Source: Flavobacterium okayamense (GTDB lineage Bacteria; Bacteroidota; Bacteroidia; Flavobacteriales; Flavobacteriaceae). From it: 64,000 bases of DNA. A program made the translations under genes and the position numbers. The stretch is taken from positions 1,550,001 through 1,614,000 of the forward strand of contig NZ_AP024749.1 in NCBI RefSeq assembly GCF_019702945.1, read 5' to 3'. The notes beneath the pieces are model-generated. The model did no database searches and was not told where the DNA came from. It was given only the letters and a program-made list of their open reading frames with translations. Positions 123-60,565 of the stretch are shown piece by piece. Every line of letters begins with the position of its first letter. Positions within the stretch are counted from its first letter, which is position 1.

Positions 123-3100
123 TTAATTTTCATTTTTAGTTATTGCTTTTTGAATTCCTTGTAATCCTTCAGAAAAATCCTCTAAAAGAGCTACAACTTG
201 ATTCATTTTGTCATTATTACCAAAACCTTTTAATCGATTGTTTTTCTTGAAAATAACTTTAATTTCGTTCCATCTTTCCAATTCTTTCTCCGATATAATC
301 CCCATAATCTCTTTTAATTTTAAAAGATTGGCTTCTGCTCCAGTTGTTAAAGTTTGTGATTCATTTTTGTAATGAGAAAGTAAAATAGCTTCAACTTCTT
401 TTTCAGAATGAATTGGTTCGATTTTGGCTACTAGTTTATTCATGTCTCGATAGGAACCTTGTAATTTAAAAATAGGTTCATTGCGGTATTCATCTGCCAT
501 TGCAGCTGATTGAATATAAGTTTCGTTAACTTTAATAACTGTATTTCGAACTTGAATAATTTTAGTTAATACATTTCTAAAGTCATCGATTTCTTGACTA
601 GTAAAATTTCCTTCTAAAGAAATATTTAAGTTATTGTTTCTAATACCTTCATATAATTCATACAAGTTGTTTAGACTTTGCTGTGTAAGTCTTGTCATGA
701 AAGGATTAGAAAGTATTGAGTTTTCAATTAAACTCAAATCAAACAATTCTGAATTTACGCCAGAAATTTCTCCCAAGTTATAAGTATCAGCTCGGTTGGC
801 TAACATGTCTGGTATTTGAAATTTTTCTCCACTTTCGGTATAAGGGTTTCCAGCCATAACCAAACAAAAACGTTTTGAGCGTAGGTCGTAGGTTTTAGCT
901 TCACCATTATAAATACCTTCAATTTTTCGTTGACCGTCTGCCAATGAAATGAATTTTTGCAGAAACTCAGGATTACAATGTTGAATGTCGTCTAAATATA
1001 GCATTACATTGTCTCCCATTTCAAAGGCAAGATTTAACTTTTGCAATTCTTGTTTTGCACCAGCATTTTTCGCCTCACTTGGATCCGTTGAGGTAATTTC
1101 ATGTCCTAAAGAGGGACCGTTGATTTTCATGAAGACCAATCCCATTCTATCGGCCAAGTATTCCATTAAGGTTGTTTTACCATATCCCGGAGGTGAAACC
1201 AATAATAACATTCCCATTCGGTCTGTTCTTTTTGTTTCTCCAGTTGCACCAATTTGTTTGGCTAAATTAGCTCCAATTAAAGGAAAATAAACTTCATTTA
1301 TTAGCTTGTTTCGTATGAATGAAGTTAATACTTGTGTATTGAAAGTGTCGAGTTTAAATTGTTTTCTTTTTGAAACAATCCAGTCTTTCTTTAATCCTTG
1401 AAATTCAGAAAATTTAGGTTTATTATTTTCAAAATAAAATTCTAGTTTTTCTGTGAAATCATGATACTCTAGTGTGTAAACTTCTTCTTTTTGTAAAGTT
1501 TTTAATCCTTCAATTGTTTCAGATGTACTAGTTTTTACAATTTGGGTTGACTTTAAATTATTTACCAATAAGAAAACTGCGGTTTCATCCAAAATACCAT
1601 TAGCCACATCAACATTATTCTCAATTGAAAATGTTTTTATAGCATTGAAAACAATGTCAAAGCAAGCAGAAGGGAACGGATAAAGCGCCTCAATTTTTTG
1701 TGTAAAAACTAAATCTTTCCCTTTTTCTTTTAAATTTTTGGTAAAGCTTTTTAAGAGTTTAGCACTTACCTCATTAATTTTAAAAGCGTCTCTATTTTCG
1801 TGTTTTAAATAAGATGCAGCTTTTAGGGAAGAAATAATTTGAAAATGATCAAAATGGCACTTAAATTCTTCAATTTTATGGGCTAATTGTTTGCTTATAA
1901 AACGGAATTGTTCTGTATTTTTAAAGGTATCCCTAAGTAATTCAATTGCTTGAAATTGTTTTTCGTAATACGATTTTTCATTTTCTTCTAGGAAGAACCA
2001 AAACAATTGTGCTAATGCTCTTTCAGAAGGAGAGAAGCGTAACAAGCCTAATTGATTATTCAGTTGTTGTAATTTTGTAACTAATTTTAACGCATCTTCA
2101 TCGTGAACACCTTTAACTAAACCTTCACCAAAATGATTGGCAAAAAACTCTTCAATTGCAGTTTTATTCGCTTTTTCAGTGTTTAATAATGGGTTTTTTA
2201 AGAACACGTCCCAAGCAATATATTCAATTTTTTTAACCTTGTGATTTTCTGTGATAAACTCTTGATTCCAAACGTCTTTGAATTTTTCTATTTCAGTATA
2301 TTCAATTGGTTCATAAAAATTGGTACCCGTTAAATGGTAGTAATAATTATTGTTTTTTAAAACCAAAGTTAAGTCGAGCTTTTGTTTGTTAACCGCAAAT
2401 TTGTAGTTTCCTAAAGCGATAATATTTTCGCCATCTTCATAAATTTCATTACGGTCTTTAAGTTTTCTTATGGCTTCTTGTTGGCTTGTTTTTAATTGCG
2501 TTAAAAGCTCTTCCGATTTATTGGCATCATTTAAATCTTTTAATTGTTCGGCAATGTCTCGAACTTTTTCAATCATTAAATCTGAAGCAAAATAACCATT
2601 GATTTCAATTTCAGTTGAAAAAGAAGCTACTTTATTAGCCAAACCTTTTAAAATGCGTTCTGCCGATTGAAATAAATTGGTTGTTCTTTTATTTCGAGCT
2701 TCTGTTAACTGAACTCCTTTTGTTTGAAATTGTTGGTAGATTTCTTCTCGTTTTTCGCTAATAACTTGGATAAACTCATCAAAATCGACAAATTTTGCTT
2801 CCATTTCTTCTAGTTGAATAGCTAGTTTATTCAAGAAATCTTGGCATTTATCGGGTGTGTTAGCAAGCTCAAAGAAATTAATAGCAGTTTGATCAAATAA
2901 AGTTATTTGCGCTTTAAAGTCTGCTGCTAATTCTTTACCAGATAGCTCTCTTTTTTTATTGTTTAATGCAATGCGTTCTTGATTAATTAAAGAAAATAAT
3001 ACAGAAATATTTTCGATAATTTGAGTAGAATGCGATGCATCTTCAATTTTTAAATTGTTTACGATATCTACTAGTAGCTCTAATTGATTTGCTAAATCGT

Positions 3101-4940
3101 CTAAGCTTTTTTCAATCTCTTTTGCTTGAATTGTTTTTAAAAGAGTGCTTATTTCAGTAGAAACTGAATCAATTATCTGTTGATAGGGCGCTAAGGCTTC
3201 AGGTGCTAATAAGAAAATGACACAATCGTTTGCTAATCTATCAGATAAAATACTTAATTCATTTTCCCAAGCATCAATTAATTTTACATCTACATATTGT
3301 AAATCTTTAGCAGAAATCATTTCCCCTCTTAGTGAACGAATTTCAGACAAAGAGACAATGTACTGTTGTAAACTCGTATAGTTTTGATAACTAAGTTCAT
3401 TTGTTTTAGCTTCAAATTTTTCTTTTATTTCTTCTAAGGCTGCAGCCGTTTTCTTTTTTATCTCCTGAACTTTTTCAAATTCATTTATTGCAGTATGAGC
3501 AATATTTCGAATTTCTTGAAGTGGCTCATTAATTTTAAAAACACCATTCTCATTTAAGAAATAATAGCTATCTAAAATAGTTGTTGTATGCTTTACAATT
3601 TCATCATATAAACCGTTATAAGAATCTTTTTTATTTAAAAAAACTTGTAATTCTTGACATTCGGCCATTAAGCGTACTAAATCTTTGTTACCAACTTTAT
3701 AGATAATGTTATCTTTATTTTGGTTATCAACAACTACATCTTTTGTAAATGGTGTTTGCCAAATTTGTACTAAATGATGTTTGGTTTCTTCATTGCTTTT
3801 GAAATAGCACATTTTTCCATCTTCAAAGAGAGTGAAACCATTACAATGAATAGGCGTTTCAATACTTTGTTTAATGATGTTGTATGGAATTAACATGTAT
3901 TCATTGCTTTCTTGATTGTAAAAGACAAACAAGAAATTCTCTCCATTTATTCCAACAATTTTTTTATAAAAATATATTGGTTTGTTATTTGTTTCTAAGG
4001 TTTTAATTTCACCTGTTTGTAATGCATAACCATTAGGGTAGATTAAGCCTTGATTTTCTGGGAGTAAAATACCAGAATATTGTAATGAGTCTACACGAGC
4101 GACTTTTTTATCTTTGTGATTATAGATGAAAAAACGTTCTTCTTCTTGATAAGGTTTTATTTTAAATGCGATCAGATTTTGATAATCAAAGAAATTGATT
4201 TCTGAATCGTCTAAAGTTTGATCTTTATGTTTAACATCTTCACTGTAAATACCTTTACCTGTTTTGGTATTATCTTCAACTTTAATCGTAATATCACCTC
4301 CAATAGCTTCAACAAATACTTTATCGGCTAATGAAACGTGAGGATGCTCTCCTTTACGTTGCATATCACGAGTAGCCTTTGTCCATTTAAACTCAAATTG
4401 ATTAGGGAATTTAACTTCAGCTGCACTTCTTGCATCAATAAATACTATACCATCTTCTTTTAATAGCCATTTAAATGCCTTAATATCTGAAGCATTTGAA
4501 GATAATTGGAAGACAAAATATAGGTAGTTACCAGAGATGAAAAATTTGGTAAATGTTGTATTTCTATAATATTTATAAAGATTTTTGAATTCGTCTATAA
4601 AGTTTTGATCTTCTAGCCATGATAAGGCAAGTGGTTCAAATCTATTTTCAGAAAAAGTATACATGGAAAAAACGTCAGTTATGTCTACTTCTGTTTTTAA
4701 CCCAAGATGTGTTTGATGTCCGACCAAACAAATAGAACCAATAGAAATAATATCGCGAATTTTACAACTTTGCTCAGTTGAAAGTCTTTCATTTGCGATA
4801 AGATTATAATCGATACCTCCAAATATTTTCTTCCGTTCTTCGTCTAAAAGAGTTATTCTTTTTGCTAACTCATTTTTTTGTTGCGTTAAACGTTGTTGAA
4901 TAATTTCGTAGGTACCATTTTGTATGGTTTCTTTACTCAT
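123..4940 (-). CDS. Very large AAA ATPase, 'DNA repair ATPase' type (DUF3686-like)
   Basis: This is a 1605-residue protein without signal peptide or membrane segment. The first 450 residues are beta-rich with many aromatic strands and resemble the DUF3686 region of bacterial proteins labelled DNA repair ATPase. Residues of about 450-900 are long coiled coils. A AAA module lies near 1200-1430: Walker A in VSPPGYGKTT near 1250, Walker B in LYLDDIQ near 1313, and a sensor-1-like stretch VMAGNPYTESG near 1345. It is the fifth gene of an operon with YbjN-like, PspA, OB-fold membrane and flotillin genes. That setting argues for an ATPase that acts on a membrane or PspA assembly. The DNA-repair name is historical and nothing here supports it. 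Family call is likely; function is inference. Confidence 0.8.
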   Translation of the reverse strand: MSKETIQNGTYEIIQQRLTQQKNELAKRITLLDEERKKIFGGIDYNLIANERLSTEQSCKIRDIISIGSICLVGHQTHLGLKTEVDITDVFSMYTFSENRFEPLALSWLEDQNFIDEFKNLYKYYRNTTFTKFFISGNYLYFVFQLSSNASDIKAFKWLLKEDGIVFIDARSAAEVKFPNQFEFKWTKATRDMQRKGEHPHVSLADKVFVEAIGGDITIKVEDNTKTGKGIYSEDVKHKDQTLDDSEINFFDYQNLIAFKIKPYQEEERFFIYNHKDKKVARVDSLQYSGILLPENQGLIYPNGYALQTGEIKTLETNNKPIYFYKKIVGINGENFLFVFYNQESNEYMLIPYNIIKQSIETPIHCNGFTLFEDGKMCYFKSNEETKHHLVQIWQTPFTKDVVVDNQNKDNIIYKVGNKDLVRLMAECQELQVFLNKKDSYNGLYDEIVKHTTTILDSYYFLNENGVFKINEPLQEIRNIAHTAINEFEKVQEIKKKTAAALEEIKEKFEAKTNELSYQNYTSLQQYIVSLSEIRSLRGEMISAKDLQYVDVKLIDAWENELSILSDRLANDCVIFLLAPEALAPYQQIIDSVSTEISTLLKTIQAKEIEKSLDDLANQLELLVDIVNNLKIEDASHSTQIIENISVLFSLINQERIALNNKKRELSGKELAADFKAQITLFDQTAINFFELANTPDKCQDFLNKLAIQLEEMEAKFVDFDEFIQVISEKREEIYQQFQTKGVQLTEARNKRTTNLFQSAERILKGLANKVASFSTEIEINGYFASDLMIEKVRDIAEQLKDLNDANKSEELLTQLKTSQQEAIRKLKDRNEIYEDGENIIALGNYKFAVNKQKLDLTLVLKNNNYYYHLTGTNFYEPIEYTEIEKFKDVWNQEFITENHKVKKIEYIAWDVFLKNPLLNTEKANKTAIEEFFANHFGEGLVKGVHDEDALKLVTKLQQLNNQLGLLRFSPSERALAQLFWFFLEENEKSYYEKQFQAIELLRDTFKNTEQFRFISKQLAHKIEEFKCHFDHFQIISSLKAASYLKHENRDAFKINEVSAKLLKSFTKNLKEKGKDLVFTQKIEALYPFPSACFDIVFNAIKTFSIENNVDVANGILDETAVFLLVNNLKSTQIVKTSTSETIEGLKTLQKEEVYTLEYHDFTEKLEFYFENNKPKFSEFQGLKKDWIVSKRKQFKLDTFNTQVLTSFIRNKLINEVYFPLIGANLAKQIGATGETKRTDRMGMLLLVSPPGYGKTTLMEYLADRMGLVFMKINGPSLGHEITSTDPSEAKNAGAKQELQKLNLAFEMGDNVMLYLDDIQHCNPEFLQKFISLADGQRKIEGIYNGEAKTYDLRSKRFCLVMAGNPYTESGEKFQIPDMLANRADTYNLGEISGVNSELFDLSLIENSILSNPFMTRLTQQSLNNLYELYEGIRNNNLNISLEGNFTSQEIDDFRNVLTKIIQVRNTVIKVNETYIQSAAMADEYRNEPIFKLQGSYRDMNKLVAKIEPIHSEKEVEAILLSHYKNESQTLTTGAEANLLKLKEIMGIISEKELERWNEIKVIFKKNNRLKGFGNNDKMNQVVALLEDFSEGLQGIQKAITKNEN

Positions 4941-4972
4941 AGAAATTCGTAAATGAGAGTTTTATAAGTTTA

Positions 4973-5009
4973 AACACCTATCTTTTCTAAAAAAGACAGG
5001 TGTTTTTTA
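4973..5009. other. Intercistronic hairpin between flotillin and ATPase genes
   Basis: Arms aacaccta-tctttt (4973-4986) and aaaaga-c-aggtgtt (4991-5004) pair with one mismatch around a ctaa loop. A T-run follows on the plus strand only. For the minus-strand operon the downstream side is TAAACTT, a poor U-tract. It is more likely an attenuating or mRNA-processing hairpin that lowers ATPase expression relative to flotillin than a full terminator. Confidence 0.5.
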
Positions 5010-5017
5010 TATTAAAA

Positions 5018-7030
5018 TTACTTGATAGGCTTGCTATCAATACCTAAATGTCTTGCCATATCAAGAGCCTTGGTTAAAATTCCTTGCTCGTTTTGATTTG
5101 CAACATCTTTTAATTTAAAAATTAATGATGCGATACTTAAGTTTTTAATGTCTTCAGAAGAGATTTTATATTTTTCAACGATTTGCATTACTTTTCCCAC
5201 TAGATTTCCTTCTTCATCACTGTTTAAAAGGGCATCTTTTAGTAACTGAGCATTTTCGCTATGTTGAATAAATTTATCAATTCCTTTACCAGCAGTTATT
5301 TGTTTAACAACATTGTCAAAGAATGTATTTTCTCCACCAACAATATCAATATTTGCTGTTTTAAATGCTTCAGCTAATACATGTGCTTGTGCATCTGCTA
5401 TATCTTTTTGAATTGCAATTTGTGCTAACTCTACTTCTTTTTCTTTTGCTAACTTTAAACGGAATTCTTCGTGATCTTTACCAGCATCATTTAATTTTTT
5501 CATCGCTTCAGCTTTTTCAGTGATTCCTGCAGCTTCAGCTAATGCCTTTTCTTTAATAACTTCTGCTTGAGCAAGACCATCTTTTTTGTTTGCTTCTGCT
5601 TTTTTCTCAATAATTGTAGCTTCAACAATTCCTTGGCGTTCTTGAGCTTCTGCTTTAGCGTGCATTACTTGAGCTTCAGATAATCCAACAGTTGCTTCTT
5701 CTTTTGCTTGAGCATCAGCTATAATTTTTCTAGCTTCTGCTTCTTTTTCTGCAGCATCACGTTTTGCTTGCGCTTCAATAACATATTTTTGCGCATCTTT
5801 TTCAGCAGCTAATTTACGTGCTTCTGCAGCTTTAGTTTCAGCAATTAAACGTTCTTCAGCCTCTTTGTTAGCAGCAATTATTTTTACTTGTTTGTCACGT
5901 TCAGCTATTTTTAATGCTTCAACGTCAAAAATTGTTTGTTGTTCTTCTACTACCGTTTTTTCTTTCACTAAACGTTCGCGAATAACATCTTGAATGTTCT
6001 TCTTTTCTAATTCTACTGCTTTTTCTTTTTCAATTTCAGCAAGGGCAACTACGCGCTCTCTTTCAGTAGCTTCTAATAAACGGTCTTTTTGAACTCTTTC
6101 AGTTTCAACTAAGTCAGCTCGCTCTTTATTTTTAGCAGCAATTACAACCTGACGTTGCTTGTTTTCTTCCGCTATTTGAAGACTTTCTTCTGTTGCAATA
6201 CGAACTGTTTCATGTTTTAAACGTTCTTCCTCAGCCACTTTAAGAATTTCAGCATTTTCACGCGCTTTGATGTTTTCAATCTCACGTTTTTGAGATTCTT
6301 CTTTTTCGGCTAATTGTTTCTCTAATTCTAAAATAGCTTCTCTGGCTTCAACATCTTGCTTCTTGATGGTTTTTTCTTCATCACGTCTAACAAGGTTTGC
6401 TTTTATGTTTTGATTCGCTGTTAACTCTGTAATCTTTTTAATACCTTCAGCATCTAAGATATTATCTTTATTTAAGTGATTTAATGAAGTTTGTTCTAAA
6501 TAATCTATTGCGCAATCATCTAAAACATATCCATTTAAATCAGTACCAATAATATTTAAAATTTCATTTCTGAATTCGCTTCTAGCTTCATATAATTCTG
6601 TGAAATCGAATTTTTTACCAACAGTTTTAAGTGCTTCTGAAAATTTAGCTTCGAAAAGTTCTCTTAAAGTTGAAATATCAGATGCTCTTTGACAACCAAT
6701 TGTTTGTGCTACGTTTACGATATCATCTACTGATTTATTAACACGAATAAAAAAGGCTACTTGTATATCAGCACGCATATTATCTTTACAAATAAGACCA
6801 TCTTTTCCTTCTCTTGAAATTTCTAGTTTTTTAACTGAAATATCCATATTTTCTTGGCGATGAATTACCGGAATTACAATACCAGCGTTAAAGAAAACTT
6901 TTGTTCCACCGTAACCAGTTCTTAAAATTACAATTCCTTGAACTGTTTTTTTATACATGGATAAAACCCAGAAAATTAATCCTAGTGTAGCGACAAGAAA
7001 AACTAATACTCCAATGTAGAATGTGTTCAT
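5018..7030 (-). CDS. Flotillin family protein (SPFH/band 7)
   Basis: The 670 residues start with one membrane anchor (about 4-26, FYIGVLVFLVATLGLIFWVL). An SPFH/band 7 domain follows (about 30-205). Then comes a very long Ala/Glu/Lys coiled coil (about 205-560) with the repeated EAEA/KAEA pattern typical of flotillins and E. coli YqiK, and a helical tail. Flotillins oligomerise on the inner leaflet of the cytoplasmic membrane and organise membrane domains. The partner OB-fold membrane protein lies 30 bases upstream in the same operon, the usual YqiJ-YqiK pairing. Family is clear; the process served here is unknown. Confidence 0.92.
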   Translation of the reverse strand: MNTFYIGVLVFLVATLGLIFWVLSMYKKTVQGIVILRTGYGGTKVFFNAGIVIPVIHRQENMDISVKKLEISREGKDGLICKDNMRADIQVAFFIRVNKSVDDIVNVAQTIGCQRASDISTLRELFEAKFSEALKTVGKKFDFTELYEARSEFRNEILNIIGTDLNGYVLDDCAIDYLEQTSLNHLNKDNILDAEGIKKITELTANQNIKANLVRRDEEKTIKKQDVEAREAILELEKQLAEKEESQKREIENIKARENAEILKVAEEERLKHETVRIATEESLQIAEENKQRQVVIAAKNKERADLVETERVQKDRLLEATERERVVALAEIEKEKAVELEKKNIQDVIRERLVKEKTVVEEQQTIFDVEALKIAERDKQVKIIAANKEAEERLIAETKAAEARKLAAEKDAQKYVIEAQAKRDAAEKEAEARKIIADAQAKEEATVGLSEAQVMHAKAEAQERQGIVEATIIEKKAEANKKDGLAQAEVIKEKALAEAAGITEKAEAMKKLNDAGKDHEEFRLKLAKEKEVELAQIAIQKDIADAQAHVLAEAFKTANIDIVGGENTFFDNVVKQITAGKGIDKFIQHSENAQLLKDALLNSDEEGNLVGKVMQIVEKYKISSEDIKNLSIASLIFKLKDVANQNEQGILTKALDMARHLGIDSKPIK

Positions 7031-7060
7031 AAATAAATATTAATAGTTATTATAATTGTT

Positions 7061-7717
7061 TTAAATTTCAAATGATTTTTCGATGTAGTAAAATTTTTTT
7101 TGAGGCTCTTCGTCAATAATTATTGCATTTTCTCCTTGTTTTATTTCACTACCATCTTTGCTTTTAACCATTAGTTTTATAGGATCTTTATTAATGATAA
7201 TTTCAATCATACCAATTTTATCTTCTTTAACAGTTGTGATTAATTTTCCACTTCTTCCTAAAAAGTCATAGGCAATTTCACCTTTATGATTTATTTCTTT
7301 AAAAAATGGTTTTAAAGGTGTACAGACATATTTAGAAATAAAAACACTTACAATAATAGCTGGTATTATGGTAATCATAAAAAACCAATTAGGAAATGGA
7401 AGATAAAAATTCAAATTTACATTAATAAGCCAAGCAAAAAGTAATGTTAATGTTAAAAAAAACGTTATTGGAATTATATCTAAGTTTAAGAACTTCAAAA
7501 ATTGAATAAAGTATGAAGGGTCTTGATTTACTTCAATTAATCCATCTGGATTATCCAAATTTGTGTCAGCATCGATATCAGTATCTAAATCGATGTCATA
7601 ATCTCCTAAACCAGTAAATATTGTTAATATCCAATACAGTACACTTAAAATAAGCAATACAGATAAAATTGTATTTGCAGGATTAAAGGAAATTTCTAAA
7701 AGTTCGTTAAAACTCAT
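7061..7717 (-). CDS. Membrane OB-fold protein, YqiJ/DUF1449 type
   Basis: The 218-residue protein has a first hydrophobic helix near residues 14-35. An acidic stretch follows at about 38-58 (DYDIDLDTDIDADTNLD). Two further membrane helices lie at about 80-103 and 108-130. A C-terminal soluble beta domain (about 140-218) ends in the GxxAIIID strand typical of NfeD/YqiJ OB folds. Such proteins accompany flotillins and are thought to form a cap or partner at the membrane. The Asp-alternating stretch resembles that of homologues and could bind divalent metal. It lies four bases from the PspA gene and 30 from the flotillin gene, so translation is probably coupled. Confidence 0.75.
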   Translation of the reverse strand: MSFNELLEISFNPANTILSVLLILSVLYWILTIFTGLGDYDIDLDTDIDADTNLDNPDGLIEVNQDPSYFIQFLKFLNLDIIPITFFLTLTLLFAWLINVNLNFYLPFPNWFFMITIIPAIIVSVFISKYVCTPLKPFFKEINHKGEIAYDFLGRSGKLITTVKEDKIGMIEIIINKDPIKLMVKSKDGSEIKQGENAIIIDEEPQKKFYYIEKSFEI

Positions 7718-7721
7718 ATAA

Positions 7722-8423
7722 TTAGTTAATATTCAATTGTTCTTTTAATTTTTTTAAAGCATCATCAGCCTTATTTTCGGTAGTATCCACAACAGAATTA
7801 ATTTCATCGTCTATACTTTTAGAAGCATTAGCAATTTCTCCATATGCATCAGCGATAGCTTCTTGTTGCAACACTTTGTCTTTCATTTTTTCAAGCATAC
7901 TAATTGTGCTATCTGCATCAATTTGAGTCATTTTTTTGTTTATATCTTGTGTTGCTTGACTTACTTGTACACGAGCTCTTAATGTTTTTAATTCACCTTC
8001 CCATTTTGCAATTGAAGTTTTTAAAGAATTAATGTTTACTTGCATTTTTTCAACATCATTTTCTAATTTTGAGCTTTCGGCATCAGCAATATTTGCATCT
8101 TGTGTAGCTTGTTCTTTTAATTTTAATGCTTCTTTAGCTAATCTATCACTTTCTTCTATAGAAATTTCTTCTTTTGCTCCTTTTTGAATTAAAAGTACAG
8201 CTTTATTTTGATATTCTTCGGCTTTGTTTAATAAGGAATTTTTTTCATTTTTACGTCTTATTGCAAGTGCTTTTACTTGTGCCATTGCATGAACACTTTT
8301 TTCAAGTTGTTCTTTCATTTCGCGAATTCCTTGTTCTGTCATTTTAATTGGATCTTCAAGTCCATCAATTGCAGCATGAGCTTCTGCTTTACCAATTCTA
8401 AATAATCTTCTTAAAATATTCAT
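7722..8423 (-). CDS. PspA/IM30 family protein
   Basis: I chose the ATG at 8423 (MNILRRLFRIGKAEAHA) over an in-frame TTG two codons upstream. The product is about 233 residues and almost wholly helical. The N-terminal amphipathic helix carries the RRLFRIGKAEAHAAID motif, followed by DPIKMTEQGIREMKEQL, both diagnostic of PspA/IM30. These proteins polymerise on membranes like ESCRT-III and counter membrane damage. No PspB, PspC or PspF homologue is near. Its partners here are instead flotillin, OB-fold protein and the AAA ATPase, a different functional set from the enterobacterial phage-shock operon. Confidence 0.9.
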   Translation of the reverse strand: MNILRRLFRIGKAEAHAAIDGLEDPIKMTEQGIREMKEQLEKSVHAMAQVKALAIRRKNEKNSLLNKAEEYQNKAVLLIQKGAKEEISIEESDRLAKEALKLKEQATQDANIADAESSKLENDVEKMQVNINSLKTSIAKWEGELKTLRARVQVSQATQDINKKMTQIDADSTISMLEKMKDKVLQQEAIADAYGEIANASKSIDDEINSVVDTTENKADDALKKLKEQLNIN

Positions 8424-8443
8424 AATCAATAATTTTTTAATTT

Positions 8444-8845
8444 TTATAATTTACTAAAACGAATCATTTCTGCTGAATACTCACTCAACAGTAAACTTAA
8501 TGAATTAATGGTAGCGATTAATTCATTTTGATCTAAATTTTCAGTTTGTAATGTGTCTCTGAAAATTACTTTTTCTCCATTTTCATCAAGTACAAAAGCA
8601 CCATGAACAATGTCTCTGTTTTTAATCAGAAGTTCTTTATAGACTTCAGTTTCATTTTTTTTGCAACGAAATAAAAATTGTTCAACAATCAATATTTGTG
8701 GTGCAATAACTAAAATCATGTTTTTAATACCTTCAGTTTCTTTACTGATTACAAAAGTATTGTGTAACTGATTTTCATGTAAAATTTCAAAATTGAAATC
8801 TAATAACCAATCTTTAATTTTTATAAATAAATGGTTTGCTTGCAT
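8444..8845 (-). CDS. YbjN / Tir-chaperone-like domain protein
   Basis: The 133-residue soluble protein has one domain. Its second half (NRDIVHGAFVLDENGEKVIFRDTL, then a helix NELIATINSLSLLLSEYSAEMI) follows the YbjN pattern: long helix, 'hGafxlDenGxvxh' strand pair, final helix. This fold is shared with type III secretion class I chaperones such as CesT, hence the common automatic label 'molecular chaperone Tir'. It is the first gene of the operon, 18 residues' worth of leader after a good minus-strand promoter. A role as adaptor for the PspA or ATPase assembly is inference. Confidence 0.6.
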   Translation of the reverse strand: MQANHLFIKIKDWLLDFNFEILHENQLHNTFVISKETEGIKNMILVIAPQILIVEQFLFRCKKNETEVYKELLIKNRDIVHGAFVLDENGEKVIFRDTLQTENLDQNELIATINSLSLLLSEYSAEMIRFSKL

Positions 8846-8965
8846 CTAAAAATATTTTCAATATGAAACAAATATAGAATAAAAAAAATAAATTGCAAAA
8901 AATATTAGCAAAATTATAAAAATATTTTCATTATCTTTGTGATGTAAATAAAATTAGCAAAGTGT
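8846..8965. promoter_or_regulatory. Divergent promoters with paired operator-like repeats
   Basis: For the minus operon, a -33 caa (8896-8898, TTG on minus) lies 19 bases from the -7 caaatata (8869-8876, TATATTTG). For the plus regulator, the -7 is TATCTTTG at 8932-8939, with no clear -33 TTG. The 13-mer aaaaatattttca occurs at 8848-8860, at the minus start site, and again at 8918-8930, abutting the plus -7; each contains the perfect palindrome AAAATATTTT. An 18-mer at 8893-8910 covers the minus -33 and recurs inside the regulator gene at 9281-9298. The arrangement suggests XRE binding at both promoters. Confidence 0.6.
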
Positions 8966-9583
8966 ATGACTTATTTTGGTACCAATATAAAAAAAATAAG
9001 ACAAATTAAAGGTCTTAGTCAGCAGGCTTTTGCAGAAATGTTAGATTTAAATAGAGGAGTTATTAGTTCTTATGAAGAAGGTAGGGCCGAACCTAAAATA
9101 GAAACGTTATTACGCATAGCTACACTTTTAGATTTAACCACTGATGAATTAATATCTAAACCGATAACTATTAATAAAATTACCAATTTCAATCACATTG
9201 AGGATTTTATTTCAAAACAGTCAAATGATAATAGTTTAATTAAGGAAATTAATAGCGATGAATCGATAAAACCCATTGACTTGCAAAAAATATTAGCAGA
9301 AGTAAATTGTGTTTTTACAATAGATGATAAAGTTGCAAAAGAAAGTATTTATTCAAAAGGGAACATTTTGTTATTGTCGACTAATCTTGATAAAAATGAA
9401 AAGAATTTTTCTTACTTAGTAATTGACAAAGTTAACGGTAAAAGAATTTTAGATTTTTTTGAAGAAGATAAGGAATCATATAAAATTGTTGGTGTAATTC
9501 AAACTAGTCAAAATATTAGCTTAATTTCTTCTATTCTGAATAGATTAGAGTTAATAGAGTCAAAATTAGATTTAAGAAAATAA
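8966..9583 (+). CDS. XRE-family transcriptional regulator
   Basis: The 205-residue protein has an N-terminal HTH_3 domain (about 5-62; IKKIRQIKGLSQQAFAEMLDLNRG, then ISSYEEGRAEPKIETLLRIA). The linker is followed by a C-terminal domain (about 105-190) whose strands resemble a LexA/S24-type dimerisation fold. I see no convincing Ser-Lys pair, so it is probably not a self-cleaving repressor. It is divergently transcribed from the PspA/flotillin operon across 120 bases with symmetric repeats, so the operon and its own gene are its likely targets. A leader of about 20 bases precedes the ATG. Confidence 0.85.
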   Translation: MTYFGTNIKKIRQIKGLSQQAFAEMLDLNRGVISSYEEGRAEPKIETLLRIATLLDLTTDELISKPITINKITNFNHIEDFISKQSNDNSLIKEINSDESIKPIDLQKILAEVNCVFTIDDKVAKESIYSKGNILLLSTNLDKNEKNFSYLVIDKVNGKRILDFFEEDKESYKIVGVIQTSQNISLISSILNRLELIESKLDLRK

Positions 9584-9632: not shown

Positions 9633-12600
9633 TTAAGCTTGATGATCTACTAAAATCCATTCTCCTGAAGCTAACATAGATTCAGCTTTTTTGAATTTCA
9701 TAGTTTCACTTTTACCACTCATTACATGTTTAATTGTAACAGTATCGTTACGATTAATTTTTGGAGTCTCACGAACAATAGTTTCTGTAACTTGTTGTTG
9801 TTGAGGTTGTGACGCTTGTTGCCCAGCTTGTCTATTACGAGCTGCAATTTCGTCAGTATTTAAAGATTCTTCTTTAGTTTCAGTGTAATTTTCTTTTTGT
9901 TTTACTTCTTTAGCTTCGCTAATTGTATTAGGGTTTTGAGAAGGTAAATCCGCTTTAAATAAGAAAGAAATAACATCTTTATTTACTTCGTCCATCATTT
10001 TTCTGAATAATTCAAAAGCTTCAAACTTGTAAATTAATAATGGATCTTTTTGCTCGTGAACCGCTAATTGAACAGATTGTTTCAATTCGTCCATTTTGCG
10101 TAAATGTTTCTTCCAAGCTTCGTCAATAATTGCTAACGTAACATTTTTTTCAAAATCATTGATTAAAGTTTTAGCTTCAGAAGTATACGCTTTTTCAAGA
10201 TTGGTTACAATATTTAACGATTTAATTCCGTCTGTAAAAGGAACAACAATTCTTTCGTATTGTCCGTTGTTGTTTTCGTAAACGTTTTTAACAACTGGGA
10301 AAGCTTCTTTAGCACTACGTTCGTTTTTCTCTGTATAATGTTGTAAAGCTGCTTTGTATGTTTTACCAATAATTTCTCTTTCTGTTAACTTGTTGAATTC
10401 ACTTTCTGAAACAGGAGAACTAATTGAGAAAATACGAATTAAATCAAATTCATAATTCTTAAAGTCACTTGCTAACTTGTTATTTTGAACGATTAATTCG
10501 CAAGTATCATACATCATGTTAGCGATATCTACTTTTAAACGTTCTCCATGTAAAGCATGTTTACGACGTTTGTAAACTACTTCACGTTGCGCGTTCATTA
10601 CATCATCATATTCTAATAAACGTTTACGAACACCAAAGTTATTTTCTTCTACTTTTTTCTGAGCTCTTTCGATAGATTTTGTCATCATTGAGTGTTGAAT
10701 AACTTCACCTTCTTTTAAGCCCATACGGTCCATAATTTTAGCGACACGCTCAGAACCGAATAAACGCATTAAGTTGTCTTCTAACGAAACGTAGAATTGT
10801 GAACTACCTACATCTCCTTGACGACCTGCACGACCACGTAACTGACGATCTACACGACGAGAATCATGACGTTCTGTACCAACGATTGCTAAACCTCCTG
10901 CTTTTTTAACTTCGTCAGAAAGTTTAATATCGGTACCACGACCTGCCATGTTAGTTGCAATTGTTACAACTCCAGGTTTACCAGCTTCAGCAACAATTTC
11001 TGCTTCGCTTTTGTGCATTTTGGCATTTAATACGTTGTGATGAATACCACGTATTTTCAACATTCGACTTAATAATTCTGAAATTTCAACCGAAGTTGTA
11101 CCAATCAATACTGGTCTTCCTGCTTGTGAAAGTTTAACAACATCGTCAATTACAGCATTATATTTTTCACGAACCGTTCTATAGATTAAATCTTCTTTAT
11201 CTTTTCTAGCAATTGGACGGTTTGTAGGAATTTCAACAACGTCTAATTTGTAAATTTCCCAAAACTCACCAGCTTCCGTTACAGCCGTACCCGTCATACC
11301 AGACAATTTGTTATACATACGGAAGTAATTCTGTAATGTAATGGTAGCGAATGTTTGCGTAGCTGCTTCAATTTTTACATTTTCTTTTGCCTCAATTGCT
11401 TGGTGTAAACCATCAGAGTAACGACGACCGTCCATAATACGACCTGTTTGCTCGTCTACAATCATAACTTTATTATCCATGATAACATATTCGGTATCTT
11501 TTTCAAATAAAGTATAAGCTTTTAATAACTGCGTAAGCGTATGAATACGTTCCGATTTTACAGAAAAGTCTTTGTATAATTCTTCACGTTTTTCTGCTTC
11601 ATCTTCTTTAGATAGGTTTTCTTTTTCAATTTTAGCAATTTCAGTTCCAATATCAGGTAAAACAAAGAAATGTTCGTCTGTATCTTTAGAAAGGAATTGA
11701 ATACCATTATCGGTTAATTCTACTTGATTGTTTTTTTCTTCGATAACAAAGTATAATGCTTCATCTATTTTATGCATTTCTCTGTTATTGTCTTGCATGT
11801 AAAAATTCTCAGTTTTTTGAAGTAATTGTTTTACACCTTCTTCGGATAAGAATTTAATTAATGCTTTATTTTTAGGTAATGCTCTGTGTGTGCGTAATAA
11901 ATAAAAACCAGCTTCTTTCATGTTTCCTTCTTTGAAGAAACGTTTTGCTTCAGTTAAGCAATCAGTAGCTAGTTTACGCTGTAAGTTAACCAAGTTGTCA
12001 ACTTTTGGTTTTAATTCCATAAACTCATGACGGTCACCATCCACAATTGGTCCCGAAATAATTAAAGGCGTACGTGCATCATCAATTAATACTGAATCGA
12101 CCTCATCGACAATTGCATAATTGTGTTTGCGCTGTACTAAATCATTTGGCCCATGAGCCATATTGTCACGCAAATAATCGAAGCCGAATTCGTTATTTGT
12201 ACCGTAAGTTATATCTGCGTTGTAAGCTTTTCTACGAGCATCAGAATTTGGTTGGTGATTGTCAATACAATCAACTGTCATTCCATGGAACTCGAATAAA
12301 GGTGCTTTCCAAGTACTATCACGCTTTGCTAAGTAATCATTCACCGTTACTAAGTGAACACCATTTCCTGTTAAAGCATTTAAATATAAAGGAAGTGTTG
12401 CTACTAATGTTTTACCTTCACCCGTTTGCATTTCGGCAATTTTACCTTGATGTAAAACCACACCACCAATTAACTGTACATCATAGTGAATCATGTCCCA
12501 AGTGATGGCTTTTCCAGCAGCATCCCATGAATTTGCCCAAACAGCGTTGTCTCCTTCTATTACTATATAAGGTTTTGTAGCTGATAATTCTCTATCTTTT

Positions 12601-13004
12601 GGAGTTGCTGAAACAGTAATTGATGTGTTTTCTTTAAAACGACGAGCCGTTTCTTTTACAACAGCAAAAGCTTCAGGAAGAATTTCGTTCAAAACTTTTT
12701 CAGACAATTCATATGCGTCTGCTTCTAATTGATCGATTTCTGCATAGATATCTTCACGAACATCAATGTCATCAGTTGTTTCTGCTTTTTCTTTTAGAGA
12801 AGCAATTTGATTGTCTTTTTCAGCTCTTGCAGCTTTTATTTTTCCTTTAAATTCAGCAGTTTTAGCTCGAAGTTCATCATGTGAAAGTGCTTTTAGGCTA
12901 CTTTCGAAAGTTTTTACTTTAGCAATTATAGGCTGAATGGCTTTAACATCTTTTTCAGACTTATCGCCAACAAATATTTTTAAAATTGAATCTACAAAAC
13001 TCAT
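9633..13004 (-). CDS. secA: Preprotein translocase ATPase SecA
   Basis: This is a 1123-residue SecA, the motor that drives unfolded proteins through SecYEG. Walker A GEGKT lies near residue 195 and [14 protein letters not shown] near 299. The preprotein cross-linking region follows, and the second helicase half carries [15 protein letters not shown] near 725. It is longer than E. coli SecA (901), with insertions near 320-420 and a Gln-rich linker ([13 protein letters not shown]) near 1065, as in other Bacteroidota. The C-terminus ends [11 protein letters not shown] and lacks the CxCxnCH zinc motif used for SecB and lipid binding. It is monocistronic, between terminators. Confidence 0.98.
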
Positions 13005-36063: not shown

Positions 36064-39000
36064 TTATCTTTTTAAGCTAAAATGCCCTTTAAATTCTTTT
36101 CCATTTTCTCTTATAACTACAAACCAGTAATCGTTTGAGGGTAATGGTTCTCCTAGATAAGTTCCATCCCAACCCTCAGACAATGAACTTAGTTGTTTTA
36201 AGAACTTTCCGTATCTATCAAAAATTTTAATAGTTAGGTTTGGTTCATTTTTAGAAAACTTGATTCTCCAAGCATCATTAAAACCATCTCCATTAGGTGT
36301 GAAAAATTTTGGATACATAAGTAAATAGATGTCTTCAGAAGCTATTCCACAACCATTTTTATCTCTTACATAAATAGTGTACTCACCATTTGGAAGGTTA
36401 CTAAATAAATTACTTTCCTGGAAATCAATTCCATTTAACGAATATTCATAATCACCAGCACCTGAAACATTAATTTGAATGTAGTTTTCATTTTCAGTCC
36501 AATCATCTGATTGAATTGAATATATAGTGGCAATATTTGAATTTACTACATTAAAAGTATAGGATGAACTACATGTTACCGAGCCATGATTTTGATTAAT
36601 TACAACATTGTAATTTCCTGGTTGCGAAACAGAAATTGAACTTGTTGTTTCACCAGTCGACCATAAATAAGAGTCATAACCACTATTAGCACTGATTATA
36701 ATTGAACTTCCTTCGCAAATAGGCATTGTATCATTAATATTTGCTTTAGGTTTTTCTACAAGTGTAAGAGTTAGTTCTACAATTTGATAACAAGTATTTG
36801 GCGATTCAATTCTAACATAAAATGTATTGATACCTAAAACTATATCATAGTTAAAATAGTTGTTTATAAGATCAGAAGATAATTGGTTTTCTGCTCCATT
36901 TAAAGAATTGTAATATGTATAGATGTTTCCAGTCGAGTTCAATAAATTTGATTCGTAAACGCTTAGGTCGACATTTTCAAAACTATTATTCTGCTCGTCA
37001 CAAATTATTTCAGAATAATTATTGGCATTTAAAGTATTTATTAATTGAATAGTTATGGCTAAACGGTTAATACTCTCGCAATTGTTTAAAGTTTGAGTTG
37101 CGTAATATGTAGTTCCATCAGTTAATAAAGTCGAATTGTTTAAAGGAATTGTACTATTAATACTATCATACCATAAGATATTTGAACCATTAATTAAAAT
37201 TGAGTTTAATGTTGCGTTTTCTGTGCTACAAAAACTTTGTGTTGTTTGAATTGTTGTTGGAGTAGGCGTATTATGTATAGTAATTGATACTGGAATTCTA
37301 TCGCTCTCACAACCATTAATAGTTTGTGTCGCATAATAATTTGTTCCGTCAATTAAAACTGTATTATTTGGCAAAATGTTTCCGTTTGTTTGAGCATCGT
37401 ACCAAGTTATATTTTGTCCAGTTATTGTTATATCATTTAATGTGGCATTGTCATGATAACAGAATTCTTGTGGTGAGTTTAGAGTTGGATTTGCAACAGA
37501 ACTAATTATTATATTTTGAGTTTGTGTTGTAGTATTTCCATTTCCATCATTATAAATCCATGTAATGGTGTGATTTCCAGAAGTTGAATAAGTTAAAGGA
37601 TCAGTTGTTGTTGCACTAATACTACCCGAACAATTATCAGTTGCTGTAGGAAAAGTAGAAATAACAGTGTTGCAATCACCATTAATACTTGGAAGGTTTT
37701 GAATATCTGGAATTGGAGCTAAATTGTCTCCAACAACTACATTAAGGATTATTGTATTGTCACAACCACCAGTTCCAGTTATTTCACAAGAATATTGCCC
37801 ACTATTTGAAGTTGTAGCATTAAGAATTGTTGGGTTTTGATCGGTTGAAGTAAACCCATTAGGTCCTGTCCATAAATAATTAGTCCCTCCTGAGGCTGAT
37901 AATTCTAAATTATTTCCTATGCAAGGATTTACTGCAGAAGCTTGTGGAGATGAGAGGCAATCTTGGAATTTTGCTAAGTACGTATTATATATTCCTCCTA
38001 AACTGTTAAAAGTTGGATTTTCTTGATGTGATCCAATCGATGAAATACCAATAGTGCTATCAGTATTGCCGAGCAAGTATATAAAATCATTATTGTCAAT
38101 TGATATTTTATTATTCACTTTGTCAGCGCCATTGTATCCTTCAGAATAATTTCCCCCGAAATAAGTGCCCCATACTCTTTGTCCATTTTCATTTAGTTTT
38201 ATTGTATAAGAATCGGAATATTCTGGATTTTCCTTGTATGCTCCGAGCGTTGAAATACCACTTGTTTGTGAAGTGCATCCATGAAAGAATATATTTTCAC
38301 TAGAATTAACAGCAATATCCTGAATTATTTCACCAAAATATGTTCCCCAAATAAGATTTTGATTAATTATGTCGAATTTTGCTATGAAAGAACTGTTTCC
38401 ATAATTAAGAGGTAAGTGCTGAAAGCTTTCATTAAACGTACCAATACTATTGAGATTGTTTGGGTTATTTGTTACTCCAATTATATATAGATAATTATTT
38501 TTTAAAATAGATTTGTTTATATTACAAAATGTTAAGCCATTGAAATAGCTCCCCCAAATTTTATTACCATCTGGGCTAAATTTAGCTATCAAACCCGAAT
38601 TGTATCCAATTAAATTTTCATTATAACTACCATTAGTACTTATGTTTTCAGAACTTCTTGTGAAACCTGTAACATAGATATTACCATCGTTACCTAAGTT
38701 AATACTTTTTATTTCGTCATTTTGATTCCCCCCAAAATATGTTCCCCAAATTCTATTTCCAAAAGTGTCAAATTTTACAATAAATCCATCGCTGTCTAAA
38801 TATCCAGGAGCATGATTTTCTTGATAACTATTCTGCGTAGCAATATTTTCTAGACTATTAGCTTTACCAACCATATAAATATTGTTTTGATTATCAAAAC
38901 ATACATCAAAAGCACGGTCAGAACTATTTCCACCATAATAAGTTCCCCATTCTCTTAATCCTAAAGAATTCAATTTTACTAAATAAGCGTTGTCATAATA

Positions 39001-40131
39001 ACCAGAATGTTGTGGTTGGTGGCTGTTTGGAGTTGTTACATCATTCACATTACTGCCAACATATCCTCCGAATAAAATATTAAAATTAGAATCTACATTT
39101 AAAAATTTTGGTACAACACAATAATAAGTTCCCCAAATTCTTTGCCCATTTGTGTTAAATTTTACAATAAACCCATTACCATTATAATATGTATAAGAAG
39201 AGGAGGTGAAAGACCCTTGTGTAGCAATATTATCAGTACTTCCAGTAGAACCTGAAATATAAACATTATTAAAATTGTCATTACAAATGTCGGTAGAATA
39301 ATCCCCTCCATTTCCTGAGTAATATGTTCCCCACAATCTTATTGGAATAGGATCTATTAGAATAGTATTATTACATAAATTCAAATCTCCTTTTAATCCG
39401 TAAACATTATTTTTTATTTTTTTATATTTAATTTTTATTTCTTCTTTTTCATTCTTGTTTTCAATCCAACTTAAAGGAATAGTTTCTTCCATTTCTCCAA
39501 ATTTGACTTTCATTCTGATTTTATTGTCTATAAGTTTGGTTTTGGCTCCTTTAAATTTTAGTTTAATGTCTGATACCTTACCGCCCGGTCTTACAATAAA
39601 ATTATATTCAACAACTTTTGTGGAGTCTTTGGGTATAAAGAATACCACATCTATTTTGTTATAAATATTTTGATAGGTTATTTTTTGGTATTTATGAACT
39701 TCAGTTATTCCTTCAGGTGCATGGGTAACATTATAATAATTTTCATAATCGCTAGATTTTTCTTCAGCAATTATTTTTGAGTCTTGATTAGCATTTACAA
39801 AGTCAACATCAATTCTATGAAAATTATATTCTAATGAGTGTTCAGGAAAATTATTTGATTCTGTATTTGAATCTCTATTAATTCCATAAAACTCTTTATC
39901 TTTTTTTGTTAATGGAACTTTTTTAGTTTCATATATATCATAAGAAAACCCTTTTTCTCTTATTTGTACATTAAGACCAGAAGTGTTTAAAAGGTATTTT
40001 ACTTCTTTGTTTTCTTTTAAGTTTTGATCAACAATTTGCCCTTTGTTTTCAATGAAACCAATACTTTTATTGTTTTGGGCAATAAAGTTTATAGTTTGAA
40101 ATAAAAAAAAGAATAAAAAAAGTCTTTTCAT
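36064..40131 (-). CDS. Type IX secretion substrate with SBBP propeller and CHU_C tail
   Basis: The 1355-residue protein has a signal peptide (1-19, ends INFIAQ). A DUF7948-type N-terminal region (about 22-265; IGFIENKGQIVDQN) follows. Next is a propeller of SBBP repeats (about 268-745; recurrent WGTYYGGN...D...N...NIYxxG). Then come Ig-like (745-825), HYR-like (830-905) and two related Ig-like modules (910-1065). The C-terminus (about 1270-1355; FTPNGDGFNDAWRI...IFDRYGKFLKQL...W.G.YLGEPLPSNDYWFVV) is the gliding-motility-associated, type B sorting domain for type IX secretion. It should be a cell-surface or secreted adhesin-like protein. Confidence 0.93.
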   Translation of the reverse strand: MKRLFLFFFLFQTINFIAQNNKSIGFIENKGQIVDQNLKENKEVKYLLNTSGLNVQIREKGFSYDIYETKKVPLTKKDKEFYGINRDSNTESNNFPEHSLEYNFHRIDVDFVNANQDSKIIAEEKSSDYENYYNVTHAPEGITEVHKYQKITYQNIYNKIDVVFFIPKDSTKVVEYNFIVRPGGKVSDIKLKFKGAKTKLIDNKIRMKVKFGEMEETIPLSWIENKNEKEEIKIKYKKIKNNVYGLKGDLNLCNNTILIDPIPIRLWGTYYSGNGGDYSTDICNDNFNNVYISGSTGSTDNIATQGSFTSSSYTYYNGNGFIVKFNTNGQRIWGTYYCVVPKFLNVDSNFNILFGGYVGSNVNDVTTPNSHQPQHSGYYDNAYLVKLNSLGLREWGTYYGGNSSDRAFDVCFDNQNNIYMVGKANSLENIATQNSYQENHAPGYLDSDGFIVKFDTFGNRIWGTYFGGNQNDEIKSINLGNDGNIYVTGFTRSSENISTNGSYNENLIGYNSGLIAKFSPDGNKIWGSYFNGLTFCNINKSILKNNYLYIIGVTNNPNNLNSIGTFNESFQHLPLNYGNSSFIAKFDIINQNLIWGTYFGEIIQDIAVNSSENIFFHGCTSQTSGISTLGAYKENPEYSDSYTIKLNENGQRVWGTYFGGNYSEGYNGADKVNNKISIDNNDFIYLLGNTDSTIGISSIGSHQENPTFNSLGGIYNTYLAKFQDCLSSPQASAVNPCIGNNLELSASGGTNYLWTGPNGFTSTDQNPTILNATTSNSGQYSCEITGTGGCDNTIILNVVVGDNLAPIPDIQNLPSINGDCNTVISTFPTATDNCSGSISATTTDPLTYSTSGNHTITWIYNDGNGNTTTQTQNIIISSVANPTLNSPQEFCYHDNATLNDITITGQNITWYDAQTNGNILPNNTVLIDGTNYYATQTINGCESDRIPVSITIHNTPTPTTIQTTQSFCSTENATLNSILINGSNILWYDSINSTIPLNNSTLLTDGTTYYATQTLNNCESINRLAITIQLINTLNANNYSEIICDEQNNSFENVDLSVYESNLLNSTGNIYTYYNSLNGAENQLSSDLINNYFNYDIVLGINTFYVRIESPNTCYQIVELTLTLVEKPKANINDTMPICEGSSIIISANSGYDSYLWSTGETTSSISVSQPGNYNVVINQNHGSVTCSSSYTFNVVNSNIATIYSIQSDDWTENENYIQINVSGAGDYEYSLNGIDFQESNLFSNLPNGEYTIYVRDKNGCGIASEDIYLLMYPKFFTPNGDGFNDAWRIKFSKNEPNLTIKIFDRYGKFLKQLSSLSEGWDGTYLGEPLPSNDYWFVVIRENGKEFKGHFSLKR

Positions 40132-60408: not shown

Positions 60409-60480
60409 GGTCCGTTCGTCTAGGGGTTAGGACGCCAGGTTTTCATCCTGGTAACACGGGTTCGATTCCCGTACGGACTA
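60409..60480 (+). tRNA. tRNA-Glu (TTC), copy 1
   Basis: The 72-base cloverleaf has acceptor ggtccgt/acggact (first pair G-U), a T-arm ggttcgattcc and an anticodon loop ttTTCat. Discriminator A; CCA is not encoded. Confidence 0.96.
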
Positions 60481-60493
60481 CAAAATATCTCAA

Positions 60494-60565
60494 GGCCCGT
60501 TCGTCTATCGGTTAGGACGCCAGGTTTTCATCCTGGTAAGAGGGGTTCGATTCCCCTACGGGCTA
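60494..60565 (+). tRNA. tRNA-Glu (TTC), copy 2
   Basis: Same anticodon arm as copy 1. Acceptor ggcccgt/acgggct and T-stem differ by compensated base changes, so both copies look functional. Thirteen bases separate the two genes. Confidence 0.96.

Follow-up and report, generated by a model that had tools for sequence, protein, structure and literature searches.

The operons most similar to the one described here have been grouped by Ravi et al. 2024 (PMC11237479), in the accessible parts of which a CesT/Tir-PspA gene pair is described together with genes for a flotillin, an AAA protein and a YqiJ/YuaF protein. The same parts also mention abbreviated operons lacking PspA, and for this group they were found to name neither a divergent XRE regulator nor an operator. 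The operon of Flavobacterium okayamense, located in the window (the whole analysed stretch of 64,000 nucleotides, positions 1550001-1614000 of the single 2.78 Mb contig), belongs to this published operon group: a CesT/Tir gene lies beside pspA, a flotillin and a YqiJ/YuaF protein with three hydrophobic segments are encoded, and the same five protein types recur as in the accessible description, including an AAA+ domain fused to a coiled coil and a beta-propeller. A preliminary description of this DNA had noted that surveys of PspA neighbourhoods report flotillin, Tir-like and AAA partners, which is borne out by these parts of the paper. Apparently new in comparison with the accessible portions of the literature examined, where they were not found, are the regulator, its operator, the lack of PspA across whole genomes that keep the core intact, and the placement of the ATPase with MoxR proteins.

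The studied counterpart is probably the bacABCDEF operon of Pseudomonas aeruginosa. According to the available parts of three reports (PMC10948618, PMC2587700, PMC13086221), BacA has a CesT fold, BacB is PspA-like, BacC is a short NfeD protein and BacD an SPFH protein, the genes are co-transcribed as judged by RT-PCR, and a sigma-54 site has been proposed. The BacA protein is of the DUF2170/YjfI type, whereas its counterpart in the window is of the CesT_Tir_1 type. P. aeruginosa carries a DUF3686 ATPase of 1746 residues with 36% identity to that of the window, and from the gene order BacE would be this DUF3686 ATPase; PA3728 is listed as 'ATPase' in the accessible part of one source (PMC8190622) and as hypothetical in another. 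In the bacA mutant the levels of BacB to BacF are reported to rise 6.1- to 13.5-fold (PMC10948618, available part), which suggests that such an operon can be kept at a low level by a CesT-type protein. A mutant in bacB is described as biofilm-defective in the available part of PMC2587700. In a 2026 study of strain PA14, the accessible parts of which report no conserved genomic context for SPFH genes, these genes, including PaFlo3 of the bac operon, were non-essential and their deletions had slight effects (PMC13086221). A pa3728 insertion strain, used as an unrelated control, grew well on glucose (PMC12599236, accessible part); this growth and the slight effects of SPFH deletions, as given in these parts of the two papers, count against a strong role.

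Parts of the system are also known from other bacteria. In Bacillus subtilis the SPFH protein YdjI is needed for the membrane localisation of PspA (PMC8581546, available part), and YuaFG of B. subtilis and YqiJK of Escherichia coli, each an SPFH2 flotillin with an NfeD2 protein, represent the same flotillin and YuaF/YqiJ pair as found here (PMC2636767, available part). DUF3686 itself was detected in 0 of 14 control genomes, a set that includes E. coli and B. subtilis.

Organization of the operon

The five tightly spaced minus-strand open reading frames of the preliminary description were confirmed at its coordinates, with intergenic gaps of 14, 4, 30 and 77 bases in the direction of transcription, and Pfam and profile matches upheld all five identities, namely a CesT/Tir-like protein, PspA, a YuaF/YqiJ-like protein, a flotillin and a DUF3686 AAA+ protein. 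The first gene (8444-8845, minus strand) encodes the CesT/Tir-like protein of 133 residues, which matches CesT_Tir_1 with E 2.9e-53; of its earlier label 'YbjN/Tir-like' only the second half stands, the YbjN match (E 0.0017) being below the cut-off. This protein gave no match to DUF2170 up to E 1, and a CesT profile found no match in the PDB. YjfI was set aside as a relative of it, as a profile made from the YjfI protein of locus L015 retrieved just its own seed. Adjacent to it, after the 14 bases, lies pspA (7722-8429, minus strand), which starts with TTG, an ATG following two codons further in, and encodes a protein of 235 residues. Its PspA/IM30 homology (PF04012, E 1.1e-36) places it in the ESCRT-III superfamily, its best PDB matches are Vipp1/PspA chains (best E 9.2e-15), and it is the sole PF04012 match in the 2.78 Mb genome. 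The statement that PspB, PspC and PspF are absent holds, as regards PspC, for the surroundings of pspA, but a single PspC-domain frame over the cut-off exists in the genome about 33 kb away (G000:C1:1524303), with a weak second match farther off; in the classical PspFABC arrangement, by contrast, PspC is encoded beside pspA.

The third gene (7061-7717, minus strand) encodes the YuaF/YqiJ (NfeD2)-like membrane protein of 218 residues with three hydrophobic segments, an Asp-rich loop and a YuaF-like C-terminal part; a stretch of the CesT-like protein also passed the same hydropathy threshold. No Pfam family matches this protein above the cut-off, and the best PDB match of a 29-sequence profile is the soluble domain of YuaF (2k14), with a weak E of 0.015. 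The flotillin-like protein of 670 residues (5018-7030, minus strand) comprises a membrane segment at residues 1-27, an SPFH/Band_7 domain and a long Ala/Glu-rich region, whose coiled-coil nature is judged by composition alone. Residues 1-220 match Band_7 with E 5.6e-12; searched at full length it had no Pfam match, its C-terminal flotillin domain remained unmatched by Pfam, and an SPFH profile search of the PDB gave nothing convincing.

The last gene encodes the giant AAA+ protein treated below. A sixth frame for an exported protein, reported six bases downstream, is indeed present just past 123-8845 (L002:13551-14117). It has a sub-threshold Pfam match and nothing better, and was set aside as a component; it probably lies outside the system, since no relative was found at E 1e-3 among the reading frames of 96 other loci, a few of which end soon after the ATPase.

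The ATPase and its nearest folds

The AAA+ protein (123-4940, minus strand) has 1605 residues and matches DUF3686 (E 5.7e-170), DUF7902, AAA_5 (8.3e-08) and AAA in Pfam. It consists of a beta-propeller head (approximately residues 43-397), a helical middle part with DUF7902 at 581-665 and a C-terminal MoxR-like AAA+ domain (approximately 1205-1550), the AF2 models covering residues 1-560 (pLDDT 88) and 840-1605 (pLDDT 86). Residues K1255, T1256, D1317, D1318, N1365, R1383 and R1498 are invariant in 93 of 93 ATPases, from loci that include the best-scoring 80 of at least 588, with four ATPases outside 1500-2000 residues left out of both this count and the tree described below, and with D1317, D1318 and R1383 falling inside the bait patterns by which loci were picked. 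Named close relatives come from Flavobacterium. Databases label relatives of this ATPase 'DNA repair ATPase', and in the open-access literature no paper was found on DUF3686, nor on this name combined with flotillin, which may be in print elsewhere.

The preliminary description took the ATPase for the motor of the PspA filament; on this reading it would be a Vps4-like enzyme for taking apart or remodelling PspA filaments, the CesT-like protein serving as its adaptor. ATP-dependent remodelling is indeed suggested for PspA-AAA associations in the accessible parts of Ravi et al. (PMC11237479). Against it, the closest folds of its model among the matches listed are of the MoxR, dynein and Clp types, and those of the AAA domain are NorQ/CbbQ. 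The ATPase carries an AAA_5-type domain together with a MoxR fold, and a hairpin at 1339-1352 precedes sensor 1 in the model. As modelled, the ATPase domain most resembles MoxR-type motors among the matches listed, a placement that does not in itself exclude Vps4. MoxR motors such as NorQ and CbbQ work with the adaptors NorD and CbbO, whereas here a large propeller and a helical head are predicted on the ATPase's own chain. Membership of the Vps4 group was considered and is not supported: Vps4 is absent among the fold matches listed, which is no exclusion, the Foldseek TM-scores of the whole model are low (0.14-0.24), and no MIT domain occurs among its Pfam matches. At the membrane, an SPFH assembly also cooperates with an AAA+ enzyme in HflK/C-FtsH, and this theme is shared, but the ATPase of the window matches no protease family in Pfam.

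Genes that accompany the ATPase

The conservation of the neighbourhood was assessed in 97 loci, made up of 80 genome contigs, 11 of 12 plasmid-collection records, five relatives and the window, which span Bacteroidota, Planctomycetota, Verrucomicrobiota, Kiritimatiellota, Chlorobiota, Thermodesulfobacteriota, Bacillota, Pseudomonadota, Actinomycetota and Deinococcota; Bacteroidota are over-represented among the genome loci, because these are the best-scoring 80 of at least 588 confirmed. After 15 loci with less than 6 kb upstream were dropped, 82 remained, the genome part of which again stems from the best 80 of at least 588, and of these, 79 have a flotillin gene upstream of the ATPase in the same orientation and 77 a YuaF-like gene. 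In the same set, PspA is encoded upstream in 40 by our own profile, or in 41 with the short PspA of L055 found by Pfam, and CesT_Tir_1 in 38; the divergent regulator is present in 40. The three flotillin exceptions comprise a divergently adjacent gene (L083) and genes elsewhere in the genome (L048 and L089). When eight genomes were searched for flotillin, three had no match, and in all three the ATPase lies near a contig end. Many of the surveyed genomes are MAGs and possibly incomplete.

The distribution of the ATPase is patchy, with 6 of 247 Bacteroidota genomes and 22 of 249 genomes of the genus positive and 12 plasmid-collection records, some of chromosome size, carrying a copy. Such a spread would suit an operon for DNA repair or phage defence, for which the database name of the relatives would be correct, and 20 PADLOC families are matched by the regulator, which is usual for HTH proteins. 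However, the neighbours are membrane proteins, at E 0.01 not one PADLOC family was matched by the ATPase, the flotillin, the YuaF-like or the CesT-like protein, and the match of PspA is to a MukB-like model at 0.0042 only. Furthermore, the regulator alone is widely shared among the (unannotated) neighbour clusters at a fixed place. Phage defence was rejected on the PADLOC search, and a function in DNA repair or defence appears very improbable altogether.

ATPase genomes without PspA

Thirty-seven ATPase genomes without a CesT-PspA pair by our own profile were searched with PF04012, which was preferred for judging genome-wide absence because our own clade-trained profile had missed the short PspA of L055; other distant PspA-like proteins may likewise escape detection. 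Four of them (L072, L080, L085 and L097) were left out, since with less than 6 kb upstream the pair could be off the contig. Among the 33 counted, PspA scores above the PF04012 cut-off in 15 (one of these being the operon gene of L055) and below it in 18, and 14 have zero matches at E 1e-3; with all 37 counted, 15 are over the cut-off, six weaker and 16 matchless. The suggestion in the available parts of Ravi et al. (PMC11237479) that abbreviated operons might use a PspA encoded elsewhere meets 18 of 33 genomes in which none scores above the cut-off, and the same count speaks against remodelling of PspA filaments as the conserved mechanism of the ATPase. The matchless isolates include Chryseobacterium balustinum, C. 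aahli, Hyunsoonleella pacifica, Acidaminobacter sp. JC074 and Dysgonomonas capnocytophagoides, in the last of which (L068) the ATPase is split across two reading frames. Snf7 was matched in 0 of the 37 genomes, in a search whose control matched in 1 of 14 genomes only. In favour of a PspA motor, all 31 genomes with PspA-bearing operons (L043 left out) match PF04012, and in 26 of these the operon PspA is the only match.

The same pattern recurs at close range. Besides the window, 21 genomes of the genus carry the ATPase; 15 have CesT, 5.3-7.6 kb from DUF3686 between outer ends, and six have none. In these six the YuaF-like gene, the flotillin and the ATPase are intact, with neither PspA nor the regulator detected by our own profile on the 14-16 kb read. 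For 9 of 11 pair-less plasmid-collection loci the absence of PspA was judged by our own profile and by eye from the upstream reading frames. On the ATPase tree, C. balustinum, C. aahli and H. pacifica are nested within pair-bearing clades and have kept the core. The persistence of flotillin, YuaF-like protein and ATPase where the pair is missing inside otherwise pair-bearing groups likewise runs counter to the PspA-motor reading, and, judged by gene content, PspA is dispensable for the flotillin/YuaF/ATPase core.

The CesT-PspA pair in Bacteroidota

When 247 Bacteroidota genomes were drawn evenly, all six with DUF3686 proved to carry the CesT-PspA pair as well, at a distance of 3.6-4.4 kb from the DUF3686 match, as compared with 9 of 241 others when strong CesT_Tir_1 matches (E below 1e-40) are counted (Fisher p 1.7e-8, kinship ignored) and 23 of 241 when any CesT over the cut-off is counted (p 1.6e-6, kinship ignored). 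The co-occurrence of pair and ATPase thus goes beyond chance in this phylum, and it counts in favour of a motor acting on PspA. The converse dependence is lacking: 9 of the 15 genomes with strong CesT are ATPase-less, CesT lying 18-48 bases from PspA in these nine, and within the 17 kb read around their pairs our own profiles detected no flotillin, YuaF-like protein or ATPase. Together with the 18 of 33 genomes and the nearest folds described above, this leaves the PspA-motor reading unlikely in our judgement. Two of the nine (L117 and L121) resemble a polyamine-type operon, their reading frames being judged by eye. As the pair is linked to ATPase genomes yet also present without the core, we regard the two as separate modules with a strong linkage in Bacteroidota. 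This linkage is tighter than a loose add-on requires.

Alternatively, all five proteins might form one complex in Bacteroidota, with the ATPase ancestrally acting on flotillin and PspA gained as a second substrate. In favour of this, on the midpoint-rooted ATPase tree, from which 14 of 93 rows without a pair label were dropped, the label requires 5 changes as compared with 26.8 for shuffled labels, an independent-pairs test having n=5, at which significance is unreachable; a YjfI-PspA pair also lies within the same stretch of plasmid pQBR103. Because of the midpoint rooting, a gain of the pair in Bacteroidota can only be inferred. The core kept without the pair in C. balustinum, C. aahli, H. 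pacifica and the six genus-mates argues against a single complex, and we consider this arrangement rather improbable too.

Divergent regulator and predicted operator

Overlooked in the preliminary description was a gene on the plus strand (8966-9583) that starts 120 bases from the first operon gene and encodes an XRE-family regulator of 205 residues (HTH_3, E 1.7e-14). Its C-terminal part gave no Pfam match to Peptidase_S24, a domain that passes the cut-off, together with HTH_3, in 2 of 3 relatives examined. Among the 82 loci, whose genome part is the best 80 of at least 588, this regulator is found in divergent orientation in 38 of 40 that bear PspA and in 2 of the 42 others, both Chryseobacterium without the CesT-PspA pair.

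Between the regulator and the operon lies the predicted operator TTGCTAATATTTTTTGCAA (8893-8911, minus strand), which overlaps a presumed -33 box, and TATATTTG is located 19 bases past the TTTG of the operator on the operon side; we take TTTG and TAnnTTTG to be the -33 and -7 boxes of Bacteroidota. Of 40 intergenic regions next to the regulator, 23 hold the exact form TTGC-N11-GCAA, with 0.34 expected from dinucleotide shuffles, and 17 lack it. The fuller consensus TTGCTAANNNNWTTWGCAA has a single genomic occurrence, which is at this promoter, and zero matches in the reversed control; the loose TTGC-N11-GCAA over the whole window is no rarer than chance (1 found, 1.39 expected). All 15 further genus-mates with CesT have the regulator and an operator with at most one mismatch (exact in 11), and in 11 of the 15 TAnnTTTG is found 19 bases beyond the TTTG of the right half-site. 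Among the 23 exact operators, TAnnTTTG stands at the fixed distance in 6, nearer in 2 and nowhere in the stretch examined in 15. A pair-less genus-mate (L149) has a loose TTGC-N11-GCAA that mismatches the fuller consensus. On this co-conservation, we propose that the CesT-PspA module travels with the divergent XRE regulator and the putative operator TTGC-N11-GCAA, on which the regulator presumably acts as a repressor.

Proposed mode of action

The arrangement that we put forward, with confidence evenly divided for and against it, is an operon of two modules, in which a core of flotillin, YuaF-like protein and AAA+ protein is joined by a CesT-PspA add-on with an XRE/S24-like switch. The YuaF/YqiJ-like protein and the flotillin would form a membrane-anchored scaffold on the cytoplasmic face. 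The MoxR-like AAA+ protein would be recruited to this scaffold through its propeller and coiled coil, and would use ATP for remodelling either proteins held by the scaffold or the scaffold itself. The CesT-like protein and PspA would constitute a membrane-damage arm that may dock on the flotillin scaffold, and this arm would be switched by the dedicated divergent XRE/S24-like repressor binding TTGC-N11-GCAA over the -33 box. The ATPase may also use flotillin and YuaF as a mere anchor, since these two are a known pair by themselves (PMC2636767, accessible part).

Only tentatively, and with less confidence than in the two modules as such, we suggest a PspA-independent, ATP-driven flotillin machine to which Bacteroidota and, separately, Pseudomonas attached a PspA repair arm, in Bacteroidota with its own repressor, so that repair would join the ancestral motor on membrane damage. 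What changes in the proposed assignment of partners is that the ATPase goes with flotillin, PspA being optional.

To our knowledge, a motor is not known for most bacterial flotillins, and the disassembly of PspA filaments is still an open question. If the ATPase belongs with the flotillin scaffold, research on membrane domains would gain a testable motor, and the motor of PspA would have to be sought elsewhere. With the regulator and the predicted operator, the system could be switched and tested in Flavobacterium, and the probable link to bacABCDEF ties it to measured phenotypes.

Gene neighbourhood of the ATPase in other loci

On plasmid pQBR103 (L015:2004-15208), the genes are arranged in the order YjfI, PspA, rhomboid, DUF2491, DUF350, DUF1190 and glutathionylspermidine synthase, followed directly by those for the YuaF-like protein, flotillin and the ATPase, and this arrangement looks like a fusion of two of the operon groups of Ravi et al. 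2024 (PMC11237479). In a locus from Kiritimatiellota (L055:6131-7215), a short PspA is encoded divergently, immediately upstream of the YuaF-like gene, and the product of the gene preceding it looks, as judged by eye, like a DNA-binding protein. In Vibrio campbellii (L018:14855-16633), the ATPase gene is immediately followed by those for a PLD-like protein and for TelA (toxic anion resistance), and the same position in Photobacterium (L022) is taken by a PLD-like cluster gene.

Structural features and additional genes

In an alignment of 29 YuaF-like sequences, many members, including that of the window (7061-7717, about residues 34-54), carry a loop rich in Asp (DxDxD) that follows the first membrane segment and may be a cation site. 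Elsewhere in the window, the gene at 9633-13004, beyond the XRE regulator, resembles secA; a 1355-aa protein (36064-40131) combines a CHU_C type IX secretion signal with DUF7948 and Ig-like domains, and two adjacent tRNA genes are located at 60409-60565.

The ATPase frame reaches 3320 aa, approximately twice the usual length, in a Gimesia MAG (L066:9860-19822). In Dysgonomonas capnocytophagoides (L068) and a Rubripirellula MAG (L101) the ATPase is divided between two ORFs, reflecting either an assembly error or a real break. In P. aeruginosa, PA3728, likely the ATPase of the bac operon, is among the recurrently mutated genes of cystic fibrosis isolates listed in two reports (PMC8190622, PMC4199492).
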